64,000 nucleotides of DNA from a halophilic archaeon SHRA6 (GTDB taxonomy: Archaea > Halobacteriota > Halobacteria > Halobacteriales > Haloferacaceae): the NCBI GenBank assembly GCA_005239175.1, contig ML241294.1, positions 941,275 to 1,005,274 on the forward strand, in the 5' to 3' direction. The notes under the pieces are model-generated. The model searched no databases. It was not told the origin of the DNA and saw only the letters and a list, made by a program, of their open reading frames with translations. Position 1 is the first letter of the stretch; each line of letters opens with the position of its first letter. Below are positions 46,221 through 60,766 of this stretch, one piece after another. The translations under genes and the position numbers were made by a program.

Positions 46221-46877
46221 TTACTGAGGCCGCTTTTGTTGATCCAGCAGATCGTCGGGGGTGTTGATGTTCGTAAACGCCCTGTCGGGGACGTGGGCAA
46301 AGACCTCTGGTTCGGGGATGACGATCGGTTCGAGTTCGTCAATAAATCGGGGGAGGGAGGGATCGCCCGAGCGGATGGCCGTCGTGCAGGCATTTTGGCC
46401 GGCCCGAACGTGGATCGCAGCCGGAAACGGCTGGGCCTGCCCATCGACCTGCGCGAGCGCGCCAGTGTGATTCCGTGCACGGCTGAACAGTGTCTCGACG
46501 AACGCGGTCGGCACATACGGCATATCGCACGGGAGGAGTGCCGCATAGGCCGCGGCTGTCTCAGAGAGGGTGTCACGGAGTCCGAACACTGGGCCTCGTC
46601 CAGAGATTCGATCGGGAATGAACTGTACATCGAAATCCGAGAGAACGGACTCAAACTCCTCAACTTGCCGATAGCGACAGCTCACGAACAATTCGTCGAC
46701 GATCGGGACGAGCGTCTCAACGGCGTGGGCGAGTAGTGGTGTCCCCGATAGCGGCGCAAGTGCCTTGTCGATCGTCGGGAATCGGGCGGATTCACCGCCG
46801 GCGAGAACGATCCCGGCGCGACCGGTATCGGGTTTGAGCGGTTCGGTTGGACCAGACAGCGGGCGATCCTCAGCCAT
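46221..46877 (-). CDS. mobA: Molybdenum cofactor guanylyltransferase
   Basis: A 218-residue nucleotidyltransferase that adds GMP to molybdopterin to give the dinucleotide cofactor. The GTP-binding loop is IVLAGGESARFPTIDKALAPLSG (residues about 23-45; the usual RxGxDK is RFPTIDK, keeping the Lys). The metal-binding Asp is in LLPCDMPYV. The C-terminal part FAHVPDRAFTNINTPDDL has the NxNTPEDL motif of MobA proteins. It may supply cofactor to molybdo-enzymes; tungsten AORs use the simpler bis-pterin, so a direct link to the AORs here is open. A TATA-like element lies at about 47110 on this strand. Confidence 0.88.
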   Translation of the reverse strand: MAEDRPLSGPTEPLKPDTGRAGIVLAGGESARFPTIDKALAPLSGTPLLAHAVETLVPIVDELFVSCRYRQVEEFESVLSDFDVQFIPDRISGRGPVFGLRDTLSETAAAYAALLPCDMPYVPTAFVETLFSRARNHTGALAQVDGQAQPFPAAIHVRAGQNACTTAIRSGDPSLPRFIDELEPIVIPEPEVFAHVPDRAFTNINTPDDLLDQQKRPQ

Positions 46878-47505: not shown

Positions 47506-49002
47506 ATGAGTGACCCGGCCTTGGACGTGGTCGAGTTCGTGTTAACCGCACATCTCTACACGGAAAATCGATCACTTGATGAGAACGATCTCCCGCCACG
47601 ATTCAGGCGGGTCTTTTGGACCGAAAGTGACGAAGAAGGCGATCCCGGCGGGGTCGAACGGCCCCTGAAGGTGACAGACACGATCGCGAGAACAGCCACG
47701 GGGGTCGAACAGCCGTGGGAGGCAGTCTCGGAGCTGTTGTTTACCCAGCGAGCAGACTTCACCGGCGAGATCAGCCTCACACAGCCGGATATGGCGATCG
47801 AGTGGTTCCTCAACCACGCCGAAGAAGGTCGACTCCAAACCAACCCCACGCTGGCGGCTGCGATCGAATCCCACGAGACGTTCGACGCCGACGTGAGCCA
47901 CGAAGAGGCGCGCGAGAATACCCGGCCAATCAAAGCCGATCGGGTCTGGATCGACGCGCTGTTAGAGGAGTACTTCGACGAGGAAGACGACGCGGAGATG
48001 CTCGATCTCGTCAACGTCCGTGCACCGGAAGAGATCGAAATGACGCTCGACGATCTGGTGTTGACCCAGGATCAAGAAGACGAGATCGCCAAGATCGTCA
48101 AAGCAATCGAACACCGCGACTACCTGGCGGCGATCGGCCTTCGCGAGATCGGCAAACTGCTTTTCGTCGGCCCACCCGGCACCGGCAAAACGACGATCTC
48201 ACGGGCGATCGCCCACGATCTCGGGTTGCCGTTCGTCGAAGTGAAGCTCTCGATGATCACGAGCCAGTACCTCGGCGAGACGGCAAAGAACGTCGAGAAA
48301 ACCTTCGAGGTCGCAAAGCGGCTCTCGCCGTGTATCCTCTTTATTGACGAGTTCGACTCGGTCGCAAAGACCCGTCGCAGCGACGAACACGCCGCGCTCA
48401 AACGCGCGGTCAACACGCTGTTGAAGTCGATCGACGACATCTCGTTGATCCGTGACGACGTGTTGTTGATCGCGGCGACGAACCACCCCGACCAGCTCGA
48501 CGCAGCGGCGTGGCGGCGGTTCGACGAGATCGTCAACTTCCCAAAACCCGACGTGGGGATGCGCGCAGACATTCTGCAGGTTATCACCAAACAGATGGAC
48601 ATCGACGAGTTCGATCCCGCAGAGGTCGCCGAGCTCACGAGCGGACTCACCGGCAGTGATCTGCGGCTCGTCCTCCGAGAGGCGGTGCTGGAAGCACTTA
48701 CTGAAGAGCGCATGCAGCTTACCCAGGCAGACCTGCTTTCAGCAGTCGAGGACTTCGAGGAACGCGACAACCTCAAGAATATGGACATGATCGACGGCGA
48801 CGGCGCGGCGATCACCGGCGCGAGTGGTGATGGCCACGGTGGCCATGATCATAGCGACGATGCACACGACCACGATCACGATCACAGTGATGACGCGCAC
48901 GATCACGACCACGACGAGCACAGTGACGATGCGCACGAAACCGACGGCTCCGAAGACGCTGACACCGGCGATCGGGCCGAACCAACGGACCCAATTCGCT
49001 GA
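47506..49002 (+). CDS. AAA family ATPase with His/Asp-rich tail
   Basis: A 498-residue AAA+ protein. The N-terminal 190 residues (LDVVEFVLTAHLYTENRSLD onwards) are a helical adaptor domain without recognised family. The AAA module has Walker A GPPGTGKTTISRAI (about residue 223), Walker B CILFIDEFDSVA, sensor 1 IAATNHPDQLD and an Arg-finger region RRFDEIVNFPKP. The last 65 residues are an array of HDHSDDAHDHDHDHSDDAH type, with over a dozen His and many Asp, a likely metal-binding tail. The start at 47506 follows a weak TATA. It is joined to the MBL gene five bases downstream. It resembles proteasome-activating and Cdc48-type AAA proteins but lacks a second AAA domain. Confidence 0.88.
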   Translation: MSDPALDVVEFVLTAHLYTENRSLDENDLPPRFRRVFWTESDEEGDPGGVERPLKVTDTIARTATGVEQPWEAVSELLFTQRADFTGEISLTQPDMAIEWFLNHAEEGRLQTNPTLAAAIESHETFDADVSHEEARENTRPIKADRVWIDALLEEYFDEEDDAEMLDLVNVRAPEEIEMTLDDLVLTQDQEDEIAKIVKAIEHRDYLAAIGLREIGKLLFVGPPGTGKTTISRAIAHDLGLPFVEVKLSMITSQYLGETAKNVEKTFEVAKRLSPCILFIDEFDSVAKTRRSDEHAALKRAVNTLLKSIDDISLIRDDVLLIAATNHPDQLDAAAWRRFDEIVNFPKPDVGMRADILQVITKQMDIDEFDPAEVAELTSGLTGSDLRLVLREAVLEALTEERMQLTQADLLSAVEDFEERDNLKNMDMIDGDGAAITGASGDGHGGHDHSDDAHDHDHDHSDDAHDHDHDEHSDDAHETDGSEDADTGDRAEPTDPIR

Positions 49003-49007
49003 GCGCG

Positions 49008-49859
49008 ATGGAGGTCACACTACTCGGAACCGGCGACACGACCGGGACGCCGACCGTCGGCTGTGAGTGTGACACCTGCACGGAAGCCCGCAAGCGCGGC
49101 ATCCACCGAAGTCGGTTTTCTGTCCACGTCCGCAACGAGCGAACCGACGAGTCACTCCTCGTCGACCTCAGCCCTGACTTTCGACATCAGTTTCTGACGA
49201 CCGACGCATCGCTTCCCGACGAGGCGATCGTCACCCACATCCACTTCGATCACCTCGACGGACTGGGCAACGCCTACCGGGTGTTTGACGACCTTCCAGT
49301 CCACGCGGCGAATACAGTCGATCCAATCACTGAGGAGTCGGTCGCCAACACGATCCGCCGGAAGTACGACTACCTCGATCGAATCACCGTCGTCGATCAC
49401 GATCCGTTCGAGCCGTTCGAGGTCTGTGGGTTCTCGGTACGATTACTCCCCGTCGACCACCCACCGCTTATCTGTTTCGGGCTGACGATCGAAGACCCCG
49501 AAACGGGCGCAAAACTCTCGCTGTCTGGTGATTCGAGCTACGACATACCCGAGGACTCTCGGACAGCGCTCGCCGATCCAGATCTGTTTTTGGCCGACGC
49601 GATCGTTCCTGCATCGCTGTGTGAGCACCACCCGCTTGGCGGGAAAGACTACGATGACGAGGGGACGCCGCGGACGTTCGGTTCGAAACACATGACCCGA
49701 GAGGGCGCACTCTCGCTGGCGGCAGAACTCAACGCGACGGAGACGCGGCTCGTTCACACTGCGCATTTTTATCCGGTCGAGGAGGCCTTCGAGGAGCCGC
49801 TGGCGGTCGACGGCGAGCGCTATCGGCTGGACGGCTCTGGTGTCGATCGGCTCTGTTGA
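49008..49859 (+). CDS. MBL fold metallo-hydrolase (PhnP-like)
   Basis: A 283-residue metallo-beta-lactamase-fold protein of the PhnP/RNase Z-like branch. N-terminal VTLLGTGDTTGTPTVGCECDTC has the TGTxxGxPxxGC-x-C pattern with Cys residues that in PhnP hold a structural zinc. The active-site motif is VTHIHFDHLDGL, and further ligands are in LLPVDHPP, LSGDSSYD and VHTAHFYPV. PhnP hydrolyses cyclic phosphodiesters. It starts five bases after the AAA ATPase gene, so both are one transcript. The substrate is not predictable. Confidence 0.88.
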   Translation: MEVTLLGTGDTTGTPTVGCECDTCTEARKRGIHRSRFSVHVRNERTDESLLVDLSPDFRHQFLTTDASLPDEAIVTHIHFDHLDGLGNAYRVFDDLPVHAANTVDPITEESVANTIRRKYDYLDRITVVDHDPFEPFEVCGFSVRLLPVDHPPLICFGLTIEDPETGAKLSLSGDSSYDIPEDSRTALADPDLFLADAIVPASLCEHHPLGGKDYDDEGTPRTFGSKHMTREGALSLAAELNATETRLVHTAHFYPVEEAFEEPLAVDGERYRLDGSGVDRLC

Positions 49860-49880: not shown

Positions 49881-50840
49881 TTACCCGAACCGATCGAGCC
49901 CTGCCTGTCGTTTCACCACCCCATCCGGGTCGCGGACCCACGGCGATCGATCGTCCCTGAGCGCCGCGAGGTCGACCGCTGTCGGGTCGGCCGACTCGTG
50001 GCGGGGACAGTCGGCCCCACAGTCGGAGGCGGGATCGACAATGCGATCGTAGGCCGAACAGTAGGGCAGTCCAGCCTCGGTCGCCTCGGCGTGTTCGCAG
50101 GCCGGCATATTGTACGTCCGCCAGCCCTTCCCATAGGCCCGTTCGGCGATCCGGAGCCGCTTCCGGCGCTTAGCGTCGGGTGTCACCGTCTCGATGTCCG
50201 TCGAAAGTGGGTTGTACGCGATCGGTTCGACGCCCGACTCGTCGACTGGGAGTGGTTCTGGCTCACGGATTACCACTAATTCACGCCCGTCGGGGTCGAA
50301 TCGCCAGACACCCACCTCGGGCGGAAGGCGGTTCAGGTGTGCGCGGGTGACGTAGCTTTCGGTTGCGAGGATTACCTTTTCAAAAAGGGCAAGGGAGACA
50401 TCAAGGCGCAACTGGCGTTCGAGATCGCCCGGCCGACCCAGATCCGGCTTGTTTTCGATCGCGACGAGGCCGTCGAACCAGCCCTCGGGGTACCGGGTCG
50501 CCTGACGGACGTACCGGCGGCCGCCGCGGCGCTCGGCCTCAAAAAAGCCAATGTCGATCGCCCGATCGGTCACACTTCTGGCGCGATCGGGGTGGCAGTC
50601 GAACGCGCTTCGCGGGCGGACCGCCGCCCCAGTACCGACGTCGCTTTCGATCGCTGCGAGCGGGATTGCCGCAGAAGTAATCGCCGTCCGGCGATCGAAC
50701 GCAGGGCCCGGTTCGAGGAGGCACACGTCGACGATCCGGCTGCCGGGCTCGGCGACCGCGCCGCCGAGTTGGCGAGCGATGACGGCGTCAGTTTGCGCTT
50801 CGAGGTGGGCGCACAACGCGAGCTCGAAGCCGAACTCCAT
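49881..50840 (-). CDS. DUF5787 family protein with nuclease-like residues and Cys cluster
   Basis: A 319-residue haloarchaeal protein of unknown function. WFDGLVAIENKPDLGRPGDL contains Asp123, Glu129 and Lys131 in a D-x5-E-x-K arrangement flanked by a hydrophobic strand, followed by helix LERQLRLDVSLALFEKVILA and strand. This is the layout of a PD-(D/E)XK nuclease core. Cys residues at 248, 261, 274 and 278 (ACEHAE, YCSAYD, DCGADCPRHE) plus Cys10 recall the Fe-S or zinc cluster of Cas4/AddB-type nucleases. The family name is recalled from memory; the nuclease idea is my inference. It is convergent with the MBL gene. Confidence 0.65.
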   Translation of the reverse strand: MEFGFELALCAHLEAQTDAVIARQLGGAVAEPGSRIVDVCLLEPGPAFDRRTAITSAAIPLAAIESDVGTGAAVRPRSAFDCHPDRARSVTDRAIDIGFFEAERRGGRRYVRQATRYPEGWFDGLVAIENKPDLGRPGDLERQLRLDVSLALFEKVILATESYVTRAHLNRLPPEVGVWRFDPDGRELVVIREPEPLPVDESGVEPIAYNPLSTDIETVTPDAKRRKRLRIAERAYGKGWRTYNMPACEHAEATEAGLPYCSAYDRIVDPASDCGADCPRHESADPTAVDLAALRDDRSPWVRDPDGVVKRQAGLDRFG

Positions 50841-50915: not shown

Positions 50916-53207
50916 TCAGTCGTCGTCGCCGATGATACCCTCCGCGACTGCCATGTCGTCGACGCTCGGGTCATCCGCGGACGACCGAAGGACGAACCGC
51001 TTGCGGAGCAGGTCGGCCACGTAGATCACCGTCCCGGCAATGATCAGCGTGTCACCGGGCAGCCGTGCCCAAAATAGCGTCTGGACGATCGGCTGCTCGT
51101 AGAACGCGAGGCTCCGTGCGGCGGCGTAGCTCTCGGTGAACGCGACGTCCAACTGGAGGAATCCGACCGGCAACACGGAGACGAACACCATGAGCGCGAG
51201 GCCAACGTTCCAGCACCAGAATGCCGCCCGCAGCCACGAGCCGTCCCAGCGCTTGGGATCGATCGACAGCTGCAGCATGTACGCAACCATTCCCAGCGCG
51301 AGGAAGCCGAACGCGCCGAACATCGCCGCGTGAGCGTGGCCAACGGTGAGGTACGTGCCGTGTTCGTAGTAGTTGATGATCGGGAGGTTGATGAAGAAGC
51401 CGAGCACACCCGCGCCGACGAAGTTCCACACACCGCTTGCGACGATGAACATGAACGGCAGTTTGTACGGGAAGCTCCCGGTTTCGGTCATCGCGCGGTA
51501 CTGACCGATCGCCTCATAGAGGATGAACACAAGCGGCAGCAGCTCGAGCGTCGAAAAGACGCTGCCGATCGGCACCCAGTAGTCGGCCAGGCCGATCCAC
51601 CAGTAGTGGTGGGAAACGCCGATGACGCCGGTACTCATCACCAACAGCGCCTGTAACATCACCGCCTTCTCGGCGCTGCGGCGGGTGAGGAGGTTCATCG
51701 AAACGAGCGTGAGCCCGATGATCGCGACGATGAAGAACTCGAAGGCCCCCTCGACCCACATGTGGACGACCCACCACCGCCAGAACTCGGTGACGGCGAT
51801 ATTTGTCGTCGGGGTGAAAAGAAAGCCCGCGATGAAGAGAACGGTAATCGACCCGCCCGCGTAGAGAATCATGTGCGCGAGCCCGTAGATCGGCTCACGA
51901 TCCAACAGCGGCTTGAGCCCGCGAATCGCGAGGATCGCCCAGAGGATAAATCCGACGAGTAGGCCGCCCTGCCAGACCTTTCCGACCTCTAAGTACTCAA
52001 GGCCCTCGTTGCCGAGTAGCCACCACAGCTCACCGGGAAGGTAGCCGTTCGCCCCGAGCCAGATGCCGCCCATCCCACCGACCACGACCACGACGAGCGC
52101 ACCGAGGAGGACGTTTACGTACGTTTCCTGGCGCGTCGGCTCGTGGCCGGTGAGAAGCGGCGGGAGGAACAGCCCCGCGCCGAGCCACGTCGAGGCAATC
52201 CAGAGAATCCCGAGGTCGATGTGCCAGGTCTTCGCGATCGAGAAGGGCAAAAGCTGGAGGATATGCACCCCAAACAGCTGTTCGATCCCGAAGAATCCCG
52301 CCCGCTCGATGTAAAAGTGTGCGAGGAGCCCGCCCAAAAGCACCTGCGCGAGAAAGAGCCCGGCGGCGATCGGGATGAACCGCAGCGCCGCCCGCTGGCT
52401 CGGGAAGACACTCACGTCGCCCGGTTCGGGCACAGAAATGCCCTCGGCGGACGGCTCGGGGAGCTTAACGGACTTGTACAGCAGGATCGCCGCGCCCGCC
52501 GCACCAACGAGCAACACCATGGCGATCACACTCCAGATCATTGCTGAGCCGGTGGCGTCGTTGCCCGCAGCCGGCGAGTAGGGCCACTCGTTCGTATAGG
52601 ACTGTTCGCTATCGGGGCGATCGGTATGGGCAAACCACGCGGTCCACAGCGCAAAGTCCGCGAAGTCCTGGGCTTCCGCTTCCGAATCGATCATCTCAAC
52701 GGGAACGCCCCGATCGTGATCGCCCGCGTGGTACCGCTCGACGTAGGTTTCGCGGACCTGTTCGTGGGCGTACTGTTCGGCGGCGGAGTACTCGATGGTC
52801 CCGCTCTCGTCGTAGGGCTGATCGAGGTCCTCGCGGACGATTGTGTCGATCCGAGACTGTTCGCCCGAATCGAGCGCCTCATAGGCTTCGCCGTACTCCG
52901 CATCGGCGTAGTACGTCCGCATGTGCTCGGTTTTGAGCTCCAGCGTCTCGGCGGTGTAATCCTCGCCGTAGTACGCGCCGTTGCCGAGAATCGATCCGTG
53001 GTTCATTAATCCATACTGCTGGAAAGCCTCTTTTCCGTCTTGGATTTCGACGCCGGTCGCGACCGTCTCGCCGTCTGGCCCGACAATCTCTTCGGGGATC
53101 GGCGGCGCTTCTTCATAGGCAAACCACGCCCCAGCCCCCATCACCACGAGGTTGAAAATGAAGGCCACGACGATGACTTTCGCGATCGTCTTGCGTGTGA
53201 GTTCCAT
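50916..53207 (-). CDS. norB: Quinol-dependent nitric oxide reductase (single subunit, qNor)
   Basis: A 763-residue membrane enzyme that reduces NO to N2O with quinol. The first TM segment and a 200-residue extracytoplasmic domain (the NorC-like part, lacking a CxxCH haem site) are followed by about 12 TM segments of the haem-copper superfamily. Haem and Fe-B ligands are visible in FGVHILQLLPFSIAKTWHID, VVHMWVEGAFEFF (with the family Glu), GVSHHYWWIG and VGHAHAAMFG. The absence of CxxCH in the N-terminal part marks it as qNor and not a two-subunit cNor. The start at 53207 (MELTRKTIAKVI) opens at the first TM; the longer frame adds 19 residues. It is divergent from the gene at 53375. Confidence 0.93.
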   Translation of the reverse strand: MELTRKTIAKVIVVAFIFNLVVMGAGAWFAYEEAPPIPEEIVGPDGETVATGVEIQDGKEAFQQYGLMNHGSILGNGAYYGEDYTAETLELKTEHMRTYYADAEYGEAYEALDSGEQSRIDTIVREDLDQPYDESGTIEYSAAEQYAHEQVRETYVERYHAGDHDRGVPVEMIDSEAEAQDFADFALWTAWFAHTDRPDSEQSYTNEWPYSPAAGNDATGSAMIWSVIAMVLLVGAAGAAILLYKSVKLPEPSAEGISVPEPGDVSVFPSQRAALRFIPIAAGLFLAQVLLGGLLAHFYIERAGFFGIEQLFGVHILQLLPFSIAKTWHIDLGILWIASTWLGAGLFLPPLLTGHEPTRQETYVNVLLGALVVVVVGGMGGIWLGANGYLPGELWWLLGNEGLEYLEVGKVWQGGLLVGFILWAILAIRGLKPLLDREPIYGLAHMILYAGGSITVLFIAGFLFTPTTNIAVTEFWRWWVVHMWVEGAFEFFIVAIIGLTLVSMNLLTRRSAEKAVMLQALLVMSTGVIGVSHHYWWIGLADYWVPIGSVFSTLELLPLVFILYEAIGQYRAMTETGSFPYKLPFMFIVASGVWNFVGAGVLGFFINLPIINYYEHGTYLTVGHAHAAMFGAFGFLALGMVAYMLQLSIDPKRWDGSWLRAAFWCWNVGLALMVFVSVLPVGFLQLDVAFTESYAAARSLAFYEQPIVQTLFWARLPGDTLIIAGTVIYVADLLRKRFVLRSSADDPSVDDMAVAEGIIGDDD

Positions 53208-53374
53208 CAGGTGAACGTTCCCGTGCGATCGCGTTAAGCCGAGTCCGAATTGCCACGCGATCAAAAAGGGTCACGAACAGGTTCGGGTCGGCGGATACAT
53301 GGACAACAGCGTGCTGTCGACTGGGGAGTCGATCGGGTCGAAACCGGTATCCGACGAGGAAGCCTACGATCGGT

Positions 53375-58558: not shown

Positions 58559-60766
58559 TCACCGACTCCGCCGGGAAGCGATCAAAATGCTCAACAAAAG
58601 GGCCACGATCGCCACACCCGATGTGAACCCCGGCACGGTTCCATCAATCCCGACGGCATCACCAGTGCCCCCGTCTGTGACCTCGATCGTCACTGACTGA
58701 TCGCCGATCGTCACCGTGTGAGTGCCCGGTTCGTCGAACGACTCCGTCACCACGATCGTCTCGTTCGCGCCGCGGTCAAGATGAACAGTACGACTATCCC
58801 GTTCGGTTCCGTCCACGGCGATTGAAAACTCCCCACGGCCGGGAATTGACGCAGTGTTCTCGACGCTGGCGACAACCTCAACTGACTCGTTTGGGCCGAC
58901 AGTTGAGCGGTTCACAGCGATCGAACCGACAGACAGCGGTGCTGGCGGTTCGACGCTGACGACGAAGCGGCTGTCTCCGGCAACGACGGGGTACCGTCCG
59001 GGCGAGTCGAACGTATGCTCGAACGCGGCCACGGTGCGCTCGCCTGGGTCGAGCGTGCCGGCGTCACTGGCGCGGATCGAATCGTTGACGGCGAAATCGA
59101 CAGTGTACTCCCCAGCAGTACCCCCGTAGTTTTCCACTGGAATTTCGAGTGCGATCGACTCGCCGGTTACGAGCCGGATCGGTGTCTGAGAGAGGCTCGC
59201 TGTCGTGGTTCGGTACGGACCGCCAACACCGATCGTCGCTGGCTGGCGGGCTTCAATTCGGGCAGGGAGCGAACCGAACGTCGTGTCGTGCTCAGTTCGG
59301 TCCCACATCGACGGGACCGCTCGTGTCGATACGTAGCGGTCGTGTGCCGTGACTGATTCTGATCCGCCGGCGTCGTCAACGGCAGCCCGGAAGCTATCGG
59401 CAGTCACCGGCTCCGAACGGGCGTTGAGTGCGGAAAAAACGCGATCGATCGACGCCGATCCCTCTGATTCGATCCGGAGCTGCCGATCGAGTTCGCCGGC
59501 CACGAGCGCGCCTTTGCGATACTGTGCGCCGGGCGTCCAGGTCTCGGGCTCTGCGAGGACCGCCTCCTCGTAGGCGGCTGCCTCTCCGCGGGCAAGCTCA
59601 CGCTGAAACCCCTCGAACCGGATGTCACCGGCTTCGAGTGTCAACCGAGCGGCGTAGTAGCTCGCGCCGCCCTCGATGAACCACTGGGTGTCAGCTGTTG
59701 ATTCAAACCCCTGTCTCGTGTGGACGTATTCGTGCAGCCAGACGTTACTCGGGTCTTCGAGGCGCTCGTCGTCACCGACCCACATGTCAGCGTCGCCAGC
59801 TTGTAACCCTCGGACGGCCCACGGAACGCCCTCCGTTGGTGCAGCGACGACGAACACCTCCGAATCACGGTCACCCACGCGTAATGCGTCGGAAGCGAAC
59901 GCAATCTGATCGAGGATTGCGTCGGGATCGGCCGCGAGTTCGGCATCATCGGGGACAATCAGCCGAATCGTTTGCTCGTGGGCGGTCCGCGTGTGTTCGG
60001 TGTGTTCGCCGAGAAAGACTATTGACTCGCCGGTTGCGCCGGGACCGTCGAACGAACGCGATCGATCGACGCCGACGCGGGCAGTGTTGCCGGTCCACGC
60101 CCAGGAGAGTCCGGGTCCGATCGGTCGAACGATCGCCCAGTCAGCAGTCTCGGCCAACTCTAGGCGGCCGTCTGCGGCGATCGGCCCCTCCTGTCTCGTC
60201 GTCCGATTCGATGGCAATCGATACGTGATTGACGGAGACTCGGTGGTCTCATCCCACGCATACTCTCGATCGTCAGTCGATTCGAAGCCACTGGTCGAGA
60301 CGACCGACGCGGCAGAAGGCATTGTGGCACTGAGCCGAGTCACCTGGTCGGGAAGTGCATATTGGAGTTCGACCGTGAACGCACCAACCCGTTCTGGGGT
60401 TCGATTGATCTGCATCGACTGTTCGATATTCTCTCGATCGTGAGTCGATGCGTGGACGTCGGTGTCGTCGGTCCTCGGAGGGTCGGTCGGTCCGGCAGTG
60501 GGATCGATCGCTGCGGTCTGGTTCGCGACAGCGGTGTCGATCGCCGCGGTCTCGTTCGCGACAGCGGTGTCGATCGACTGGTCAGCGGGGCCTGTCGCGA
60601 CGGCGGTGTCGATCGACTGGTCAGCGGGGCCTGTCGCGACGGCGGTGTCGATCGACTGGTCAGCGGAGGCTGGCGAACTGGCGGTGGGGCTGACGATCGG
60701 CGGGATTGCGATCGAGAGACACAGCAACAAACAGAGACAACCAATCAAAACCCGAAGACAGCGCAT
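58559..60766 (-). CDS. PGF-CTERM surface protein with HEYVH motif and CARDB-like domains
   Basis: A 735-residue exported protein. A hydrophobic signal (residues 5-25) is followed by a 13-residue repeat (ADQSIDTAVATGP, three copies, then NETAAID variants) and a Thr/Asp linker. A metalloprotease-like core has VWLHEYVHTRQGF (HEYVH at about residue 345) and, 20 residues on, WFIEGGASYYAARL, giving the HExxH...E pattern of gluzincins such as M1 peptidases. Two CARDB-like beta domains with EIPVENYGGTAGEYTVDF and VASVENTASIPGRG follow. The end, VPGFTSGVAIVALLLSILIA and RRSR, is a PGF-CTERM anchor. Peptidase activity is inferred; it may process or bind surface material. Confidence 0.85.
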   Translation of the reverse strand: MRCLRVLIGCLCLLLCLSIAIPPIVSPTASSPASADQSIDTAVATGPADQSIDTAVATGPADQSIDTAVANETAAIDTAVANQTAAIDPTAGPTDPPRTDDTDVHASTHDRENIEQSMQINRTPERVGAFTVELQYALPDQVTRLSATMPSAASVVSTSGFESTDDREYAWDETTESPSITYRLPSNRTTRQEGPIAADGRLELAETADWAIVRPIGPGLSWAWTGNTARVGVDRSRSFDGPGATGESIVFLGEHTEHTRTAHEQTIRLIVPDDAELAADPDAILDQIAFASDALRVGDRDSEVFVVAAPTEGVPWAVRGLQAGDADMWVGDDERLEDPSNVWLHEYVHTRQGFESTADTQWFIEGGASYYAARLTLEAGDIRFEGFQRELARGEAAAYEEAVLAEPETWTPGAQYRKGALVAGELDRQLRIESEGSASIDRVFSALNARSEPVTADSFRAAVDDAGGSESVTAHDRYVSTRAVPSMWDRTEHDTTFGSLPARIEARQPATIGVGGPYRTTTASLSQTPIRLVTGESIALEIPVENYGGTAGEYTVDFAVNDSIRASDAGTLDPGERTVAAFEHTFDSPGRYPVVAGDSRFVVSVEPPAPLSVGSIAVNRSTVGPNESVEVVASVENTASIPGRGEFSIAVDGTERDSRTVHLDRGANETIVVTESFDEPGTHTVTIGDQSVTIEVTDGGTGDAVGIDGTVPGFTSGVAIVALLLSILIASRRSR
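60565..60690. repeat. In-frame 39-base tandem repeat
   Basis: Units beginning GATCGACTGG at 60572, 60611 and 60650 repeat every 39 bases inside the gene at 58559, coding for the 13-residue repeat ADQSIDTAVATGP. Shorter degenerate copies continue to about 60500. The third copy is partly diverged (GCGGAGGCTGG). The repeat lies right after the signal peptide. Confidence 0.9.

Follow-up and report, generated by a model that had tools for sequence, protein, structure and literature searches.

Two questions are raised by a locus of the halophilic archaeon SHRA6 (phylum Halobacteriota, class Halobacteria): what an AAA ATPase does with a C-terminal tail rich in histidine and aspartate, and why its gene lies immediately upstream of that of a metal-dependent hydrolase. 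We refer to the whole stretch of DNA that was analysed, 64,000 nucleotides, as the window; it comes from a genome of 3.36 Mb in five contigs and lies on one of these. The first-pass annotation of this DNA suggested that the ATPase may insert metal into the neighbouring enzyme or remodel it. The two features from which that suggestion started, the His/Asp-rich tail and a PhnP-like hydrolase of the MBL fold encoded 5 bp downstream, are confirmed by the open reading frames and by Pfam.

The ATPase and its neighbour

The ATPase, a protein of 498 amino acids with a single AAA module, is encoded on the plus strand from the ATG at 47506 to the TGA at 49002. A mechanical list of open reading frames opens this frame earlier, at TTG 47320. 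We prefer ATG 47506 as the likely start because the orthologues align from the same residue and M1 is invariant among them. Pfam finds an AAA domain (139.4 bits) and AAA_lid_3 in the protein, and together with the alignment this places the AAA module, including the lid, at residues ~180-420 (48043-48765, plus strand). In the nomenclature generally used for such proteins, it comprises a Walker A motif GPPGTGKT at residues 222-229, a pore loop YLG at 255-257, a Walker B motif FIDEFD at 279-284, and the triplet RRF at 337-339. Residues K228, L256, G257, D281, E282, R337 and R338 are identical in all 108 orthologues compared (67 from the class and 41 from outside it), and at the pore position 255, Tyr is found in 106 of these and Phe in 2. 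By what is generally known of AAA proteins, this anatomy would be that of an active threading ATPase.

The AAA module is preceded by an N-terminal domain that belongs to no named family according to the searches performed (residues ~1-165; 47506-48000, plus strand). A Pfam search at E≤5 gave nothing for it, and comparison with PDB sequences at E≤1 returned one match, with an E value of 0.8. In the AlphaFold model, the pLDDT averaged over blocks of ten residues is 75-95 across residues 1-130, except for 57 at residues 41-50. The model of the ATPase is weak as a whole (mean pLDDT 65.7, pTM 0.46), and a Foldseek search with it returned AAA proteins throughout the best 50 of 1610 rows. The N-terminal domain and the AAA module are conserved across the phylum, the orthologues from outside the class being 38-55% identical in this region. 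In a wider scan of contigs that included the Walker A pattern, at least five loci, among the 80 listed, matched both parts.

The tail comprises the residues that follow R420 (48766-48999, plus strand) and reads GHGGHDHSDDAHDHDHDHSDDAHDHDHDEHSDDAHETDG. Its His/Asp-rich stretch covers residues 443-478 (~48832-48939, plus strand). The tail is predicted to be disordered, with pLDDT below 50 over residues 424-492 and 494-498.

A spacer of 5 bp (49003-49007) separates the stop codon of the ATPase gene from the second gene, which occupies positions 49008-49859 of the same strand and encodes a hydrolase of 283 amino acids, assigned by Pfam to Lactamase_B_2. In the 70 MBL proteins that are members of such gene pairs, 35 from the class and 35 from outside it, C19, C21, C24, H77, H79, D81, H82, H151, D175, H250 and H253 are all identical. 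By analogy with PhnP, we take C19, C21, C24 and H253 to form a structural site, and H77, H79, D81, H82, H151, D175 and H250 to form the dimetal site. The top fold match of the MBL model is 6b9v, titled a new diphosphatase of the PhnP family, and the next of PhnP type is E. coli PhnP itself (3g1p). These observations suggest that the MBL is a putative PhnP-like phosphodiesterase with a dinuclear metal centre. The other genes near the pair all lie on the minus strand, namely a MobA-like nucleotidyltransferase gene (46221-46877), a DUF5787 gene (49881-50840) and a NorB-type nitric oxide reductase gene (50916-53264).

Distribution of the gene pair and of the tail

The ATPase is present in all 292 sampled genomes of the class (E≤1e-60) and the MBL in 291 (E≤1e-30); both belong to the core gene set of the class. 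The exception is a genome of one contig with 99% completeness (G002), in which no MBL was found at E≤1e-20 either; its ATPase keeps the tail though no MBL was detected. In the sample of the whole phylum, the ATPase was found in 316 of 392 genomes (E≤1e-45), leaving 76 without it. Among 20 listed phylum genomes that lack the ATPase, 2 encode the MBL, both of one genus (G297 and G354), and no relative of the ATPase was found in the stretches around their MBL genes (L239 and L240). The MBL of these two loci is 58% identical to that of locus L116, and the next open reading frame, with a GHVDHGKT motif, resembles that of a translation GTPase.

For analysis of gene order outside the class, we used 41 genomes with the ATPase, each from a different genus of the phylum sample. 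In 35 of these, the ATPase gene is followed on its own strand by the MBL gene, at distances of -4 to 142 bp, and within 100 bp in 33. An MBL was detected anywhere in the genome (E≤1e-10) in 36 of the 41, so that it adjoins the ATPase gene in 35 of the 36 genomes that encode both; in the remaining five, it was not detected. Within the class, one genome from each of 37 genera was analysed, and the MBL gene was found within 1.5 kb downstream in 31 and within 100 bp in 24. Among the window locus and the further high-scoring loci of the family, it occurs in the downstream flank of 8 of 30. In flanks of up to 3 kb around 20 loci from outside the class, the MBL was the sole neighbour family to recur in most of them (17/20). 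No third conserved member of the operon emerged, the other groups (the 15 largest were examined) occurring in at most 7 of the 20 loci and consisting of open reading frames antisense to the MBL gene, upstream genes or genes on the opposite strand. The gene pair that the first-pass annotation had pointed to in a single genome is conserved well beyond haloarchaea.

The tail has a narrower distribution. We examined 67 C-termini from the 292 class genomes, namely those of the window locus, 29 other high-scoring family loci and 37 loci chosen one per genus, which together cover 45 of 77 genera. In all 67 orthologues, R420 is followed by a tail of 24-80 residues with 3-13 His and one or more HxH; HxHxH occurs in 63 of the tails and Cys in none. 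Histidine makes up 14.7% of the residues after R420 vs 1.6% in the body of these proteins. As a control, 34 of 35 MBL proteins of the class lack HxH in the C-terminal 80 residues. Outside the class, none of the 41 orthologues has an HxH after R420, and they end 5-16 residues past this position with one His or none. Such enrichment in histidine, with HxH in 67 of 67 sequences of the class and in 0 of 41 outside it, leads us to reject a chance origin of the tail. Haloferax profundi is a named example of an organism with a tail-bearing orthologue, and Methanoculleus sp. MH98A (Methanomicrobia) and an ANME-2 archaeon are examples with a tail-less ATPase adjoined by the MBL. The outcome that the first-pass annotation had named as refuting its proposal, orthologues without the tail and a pair that is not conserved, is contradicted on both points.

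For a tree we left out the tail and used 86 sequences, namely 45 class orthologues out of the 67 and the full set of 41 from outside the class. A branch with support of 100/100 separates all tail-bearers from the rest. This split corresponds to one change, most simply a single gain of the tail at the root of the class without subsequent loss. The gene pair is, on these comparisons, older than the tail, since the two genes are adjacent in the tail-less genera from outside the class as well. Nor is the tail tied to the adjacency of the genes. In 28 of the 67 class loci (22 of the 30 family loci and 6 of the 37 chosen one per genus), the downstream flank, ~1.5 kb long (1.2 kb in L030), contains no MBL gene, and all 28 ATPases are tailed.

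A similar tail was sought in the other AAA proteins of two genomes and found in none of the five examined in the window genome, a set from which an open reading frame of 729 amino acids (C1 ~152000) was left out, and in none of the six of Haloferax profundi. This rules out the tail as a common trait of AAA paralogues in these two sets.

Several further His-rich proteins were observed in the window genome. An Lpd-like pyridine nucleotide-disulphide oxidoreductase (L211:1495-2976, minus strand; C1 ~602880-604358) has a C-terminal HDHDHGHDH tail and ends in NHDHDHGHDHDHDHGHDHDHSHD. A search of 44 genomes for its relatives gave 28 matches in 21 genomes, and all 19 sequences examined, including the copy of the window genome, carry at least two extra His; this oxidoreductase may represent a second soluble haloarchaeal enzyme with a conserved His tail. 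A protein with the Pfam domain MoCF_biosynth (MoaB/MogA-like) has a very His-rich N-terminal extension (L230:1306-2010, plus strand; C2 ~928773), and a reading frame at C2 ~386955 (L223) contains a HDNDHGHDHDHG stretch close to its start. A sequence at C3 ~60161-60307 (L233) resembles a membrane protein, contains a long His-rich stretch and, from its appearance, perhaps belongs to a metal transporter.

The probable orthologue Cdc48d and the role of the tail

The family of the window ATPase is almost certainly that of Haloferax volcanii Cdc48d (HVO_1907). The window protein shares the two descriptors of Cdc48d, being a haloarchaeal AAA protein with a histidine-rich C-terminus, and the tail is found at 67 of 67 class loci. 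We make the assignment because, among the seven AAA proteins examined in H. profundi, the orthologue of the window protein is the only one with a His-rich C-terminus; the orthology is derived from these C-termini and from H. profundi, the sequence of HVO_1907 itself lying outside the comparison.

The published record on Cdc48d, as represented by the portions of papers at hand, concerns protein purification for the most part. Together with PitA, another His-rich protein, Cdc48d is reported as a major contaminant in nickel-type purification from H. volcanii (PMC6985049), and both proteins were found on nickel resin in another study (PMC11241148). The essential genes could reportedly not be fully deleted in H. 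volcanii, and a truncated cdc48d whose product lacks the His-rich C-terminus was constructed (strain H1424; PMC6985049). In strain H1895, the genes for PitA and Cdc48d were swapped for orthologues with fewer histidines (PMC11169840). Cdc48d is further reported to be the product of HVO_1907, a gene bound by the regulator CdrS, as are panA and psmB (PMC8406309), and to be linked to the ubiquitin-like SAMP1 at K350 (PMC5587910). The corresponding position is Arg in H. profundi and varies among the orthologues aligned, so that it speaks neither for nor against the assignment to Cdc48d. The name cdc48d has also been given to a heat-shock induced gene on pNRC200 of Halobacterium NRC-1 (PMC1971269). 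This gene probably encodes a different protein, for which reason its induction is set aside here: no plasmid record covers 80% of the ATPase, pNRC200 perhaps not being among the records. Titles and the opening parts of abstracts retrieved in our literature search mention no link between the ATPase and an MBL, and the MBL of a study on hypochlorite is, according to the part of that source at hand, HVO_1041, a different protein.

This record bears on two remarks of the first-pass annotation. It knew of no tails of this kind on AAA proteins, which is correct only in part, since such a C-terminus has been described for Cdc48d, if as a purification nuisance. Its description of the tail as metal-binding-like fares better: the tail is real and conserved, and the probable H. 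volcanii orthologue is reported to bind nickel resin (PMC11241148; PMC6985049).

We tentatively favour a reading, which could well be correct, in which the ATPase and the MBL form an ancient functional pair to which a metal-binding tail was later added as an accessory buffer or sensor. The locus would represent, in its haloarchaeal version, a two-gene module that is old in the phylum. One gene would encode a threading or remodelling ATPase with one AAA module and its own N-terminal domain, the other a PhnP-like phosphodiesterase with a dinuclear metal centre. The conservation of the pair suggests that the two proteins probably work together; the ATPase ring would most likely bind and remodel the MBL itself, in which case the two would be in contact, or a client that the MBL also processes. 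In the ancestor of haloarchaea, the ATPase would have gained, once, a flexible His/Asp tail that may bind transition metals, as the nickel-resin binding reported for the probable orthologue indicates. By buffering or sensing metal locally, the tail could, in an accessory role, tune the machine when metal is a stress. It would be dispensable both for the essential function under laboratory conditions, as reported for H. volcanii Cdc48d, and for the existence of the pair. A bolder and unlikely version assumes a hexamer and has the tails of the ring form a metal-binding crown, with metal gating the remodelling or activation of the phosphodiesterase; if this were true, a metal sensor built into an unfoldase would have been added to the ancient ATPase/MBL pair at the origin of haloarchaea.

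A strong rival, which we consider less than probable but take seriously, attributes the tail to a general habit of haloarchaea: it would be a cytosolic metal sink or an appendage that provides charge or solubility, with no role in the machine, and the gene pair would be a separate matter. This rival is strong because the Lpd-like oxidoreductase and its relatives also carry extra His, at least two beyond the conserved core in the 19 class sequences. In the DNA of the window genome, moreover, the HxHxHxH pattern matches 33 times vs 12 for the backward control, and the matches include the Lpd-like enzyme at its C-terminus and the MoaB-like protein at its N-terminus. Similar His stretches thus occur on further soluble proteins encoded by this genome, PitA is reported as a second His-rich protein in H. 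volcanii, and truncation of the Cdc48d tail was possible (PMC6985049). The tail may, then, have nothing specific to do with the AAA machine. A mere habit would not, however, readily account for a tail retained at all 67 loci from 45 genera after a single gain, or for its restriction to this one protein among the six AAA proteins examined in the window genome and the seven in H. profundi.

Improbable, in our assessment, is the proposal of the first-pass annotation that the ATPase acts as a metallochaperone and loads metal into the neighbouring MBL through its tail. The genes are adjacent, the MBL has a metal site with invariant ligands, and the probable orthologue reportedly binds nickel resin, all as this proposal would have it. 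Nevertheless, none of the 41 ATPases from outside the class is tailed, yet 35 of them are paired with MBL proteins that keep the same ligands. Conversely, the tail is retained even when the MBL is not nearby or undetected, as in the 28 loci described above and in G002. A strain with a tail-less Cdc48d was, furthermore, built although the gene could not be deleted (PMC6985049). We do not favour metal insertion into the MBL because the tail is independent of the MBL and because the C-terminus of Cdc48d can be removed.

We likewise assign a low probability to the view that places the ATPase in the Cdc48/AMA network, as an unfoldase linked to the proteasome, and takes its link to the MBL to be one of position only. 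Cdc48d has been discussed with proteasome genes, CdrS targets it along with panA and psmB (PMC8406309), and the reported link to SAMP1 (PMC5587910) agrees with such a role. Against it, a C-terminal HbYX motif is found in none of the 108 ATPase sequences, the single AAA module and orphan N-terminal domain do not correspond to a two-module Cdc48, and positional linkage alone does not easily explain retention of the pair across the phylum. The notion of the tail as a repeat artefact, drifting DNA free of selection, is very improbable: imperfect tandem repeats of 33-36 bp do run through the window tail, and its present length in this genome may reflect expansion, but the copies over the His region match at only 65-78%, synonymous Asp codons are mixed over residues 441-485 (GAT 8, GAC 8), and HxH is conserved throughout the class.

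The literature at hand mentions this ATPase, which a model archaeon reportedly cannot do without, for the most part as a purification contaminant. The class-wide tail and the phylum-wide MBL partner suggest concrete functions for both, and natural tail-less orthologues beside the MBL exist, for example in Methanoculleus. Should the coupling hold, it would establish a new pairing of an AAA ATPase with a phosphodiesterase, conserved across a phylum of archaea.

Relation to known systems

Cdc48/p97 proteins are recognized by two tandem AAA modules and the Cdc48 N domain. The window ATPase has one AAA stretch and an N-terminal domain without a family, and it scores 140.7 bits of the 802.65 set for the CDC48 model; we do not count it among these proteins. 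The same holds for proteasome-activating nucleotidases (166.7 of 500 bits), with the TIGR01242, Pan1 and Pan2 models also below their cut-offs.

The best NCBIfam match of the AAA module is IetA, the ATPase of the anti-phage system IetAS (194.6 of 510 bits; residues 164-415), which is also its best match in PADLOC (217.7 bits; residues 162-421). The partner gene in that system encodes the serine protease IetS. The window ATPase differs in having the MBL as its downstream neighbour and in being present in every one of the 292 sampled class genomes, and we do not assign it to IetAS.

His-rich metallochaperones such as UreE, in which the His-rich stretch sits at the C-terminus, have such a stretch in common with the window protein. 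The enzyme module of the latter is an AAA ATPase, and Pfam found no metallochaperone domain in it.

The MBL shares with the PhnP-family structures 6b9v and 3g1p, the latter being among its first six folds, the MBL fold, the HxHxDH motif and the CxCxxC motif with a further His, at 22-24% identity in the fold alignments. It thus has the features of the broad PhnP family. PhnP in the strict sense is a different matter, as the score against the equivalog model is 50.1 of 272.25 bits; the best NCBIfam model, PRK02113, is also below its cut-off (94.2 of 386).

AMA ATPases of Archaeoglobus and methanogens are likewise archaeal AAA proteins from overlapping taxa. Going by the part of their description at hand, they are set apart by a C-terminal HbYX motif (PMC4192671), the motif found in 0 of 108 sequences here. 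The known protein to which the window ATPase probably corresponds is Cdc48d of H. volcanii, a haloarchaeal AAA ATPase with a histidine-rich C-terminus as well, which the portions of the literature at hand treat as a contaminant or as a Cdc48-type protein, with no mention of the MBL gene in those portions. The ATPase as such is, accordingly, already known; what appear to be undescribed, as far as the literature searched goes, are the class-wide tail of single origin, the orphan N-terminal domain and the MBL partner that accompanies it across the phylum.
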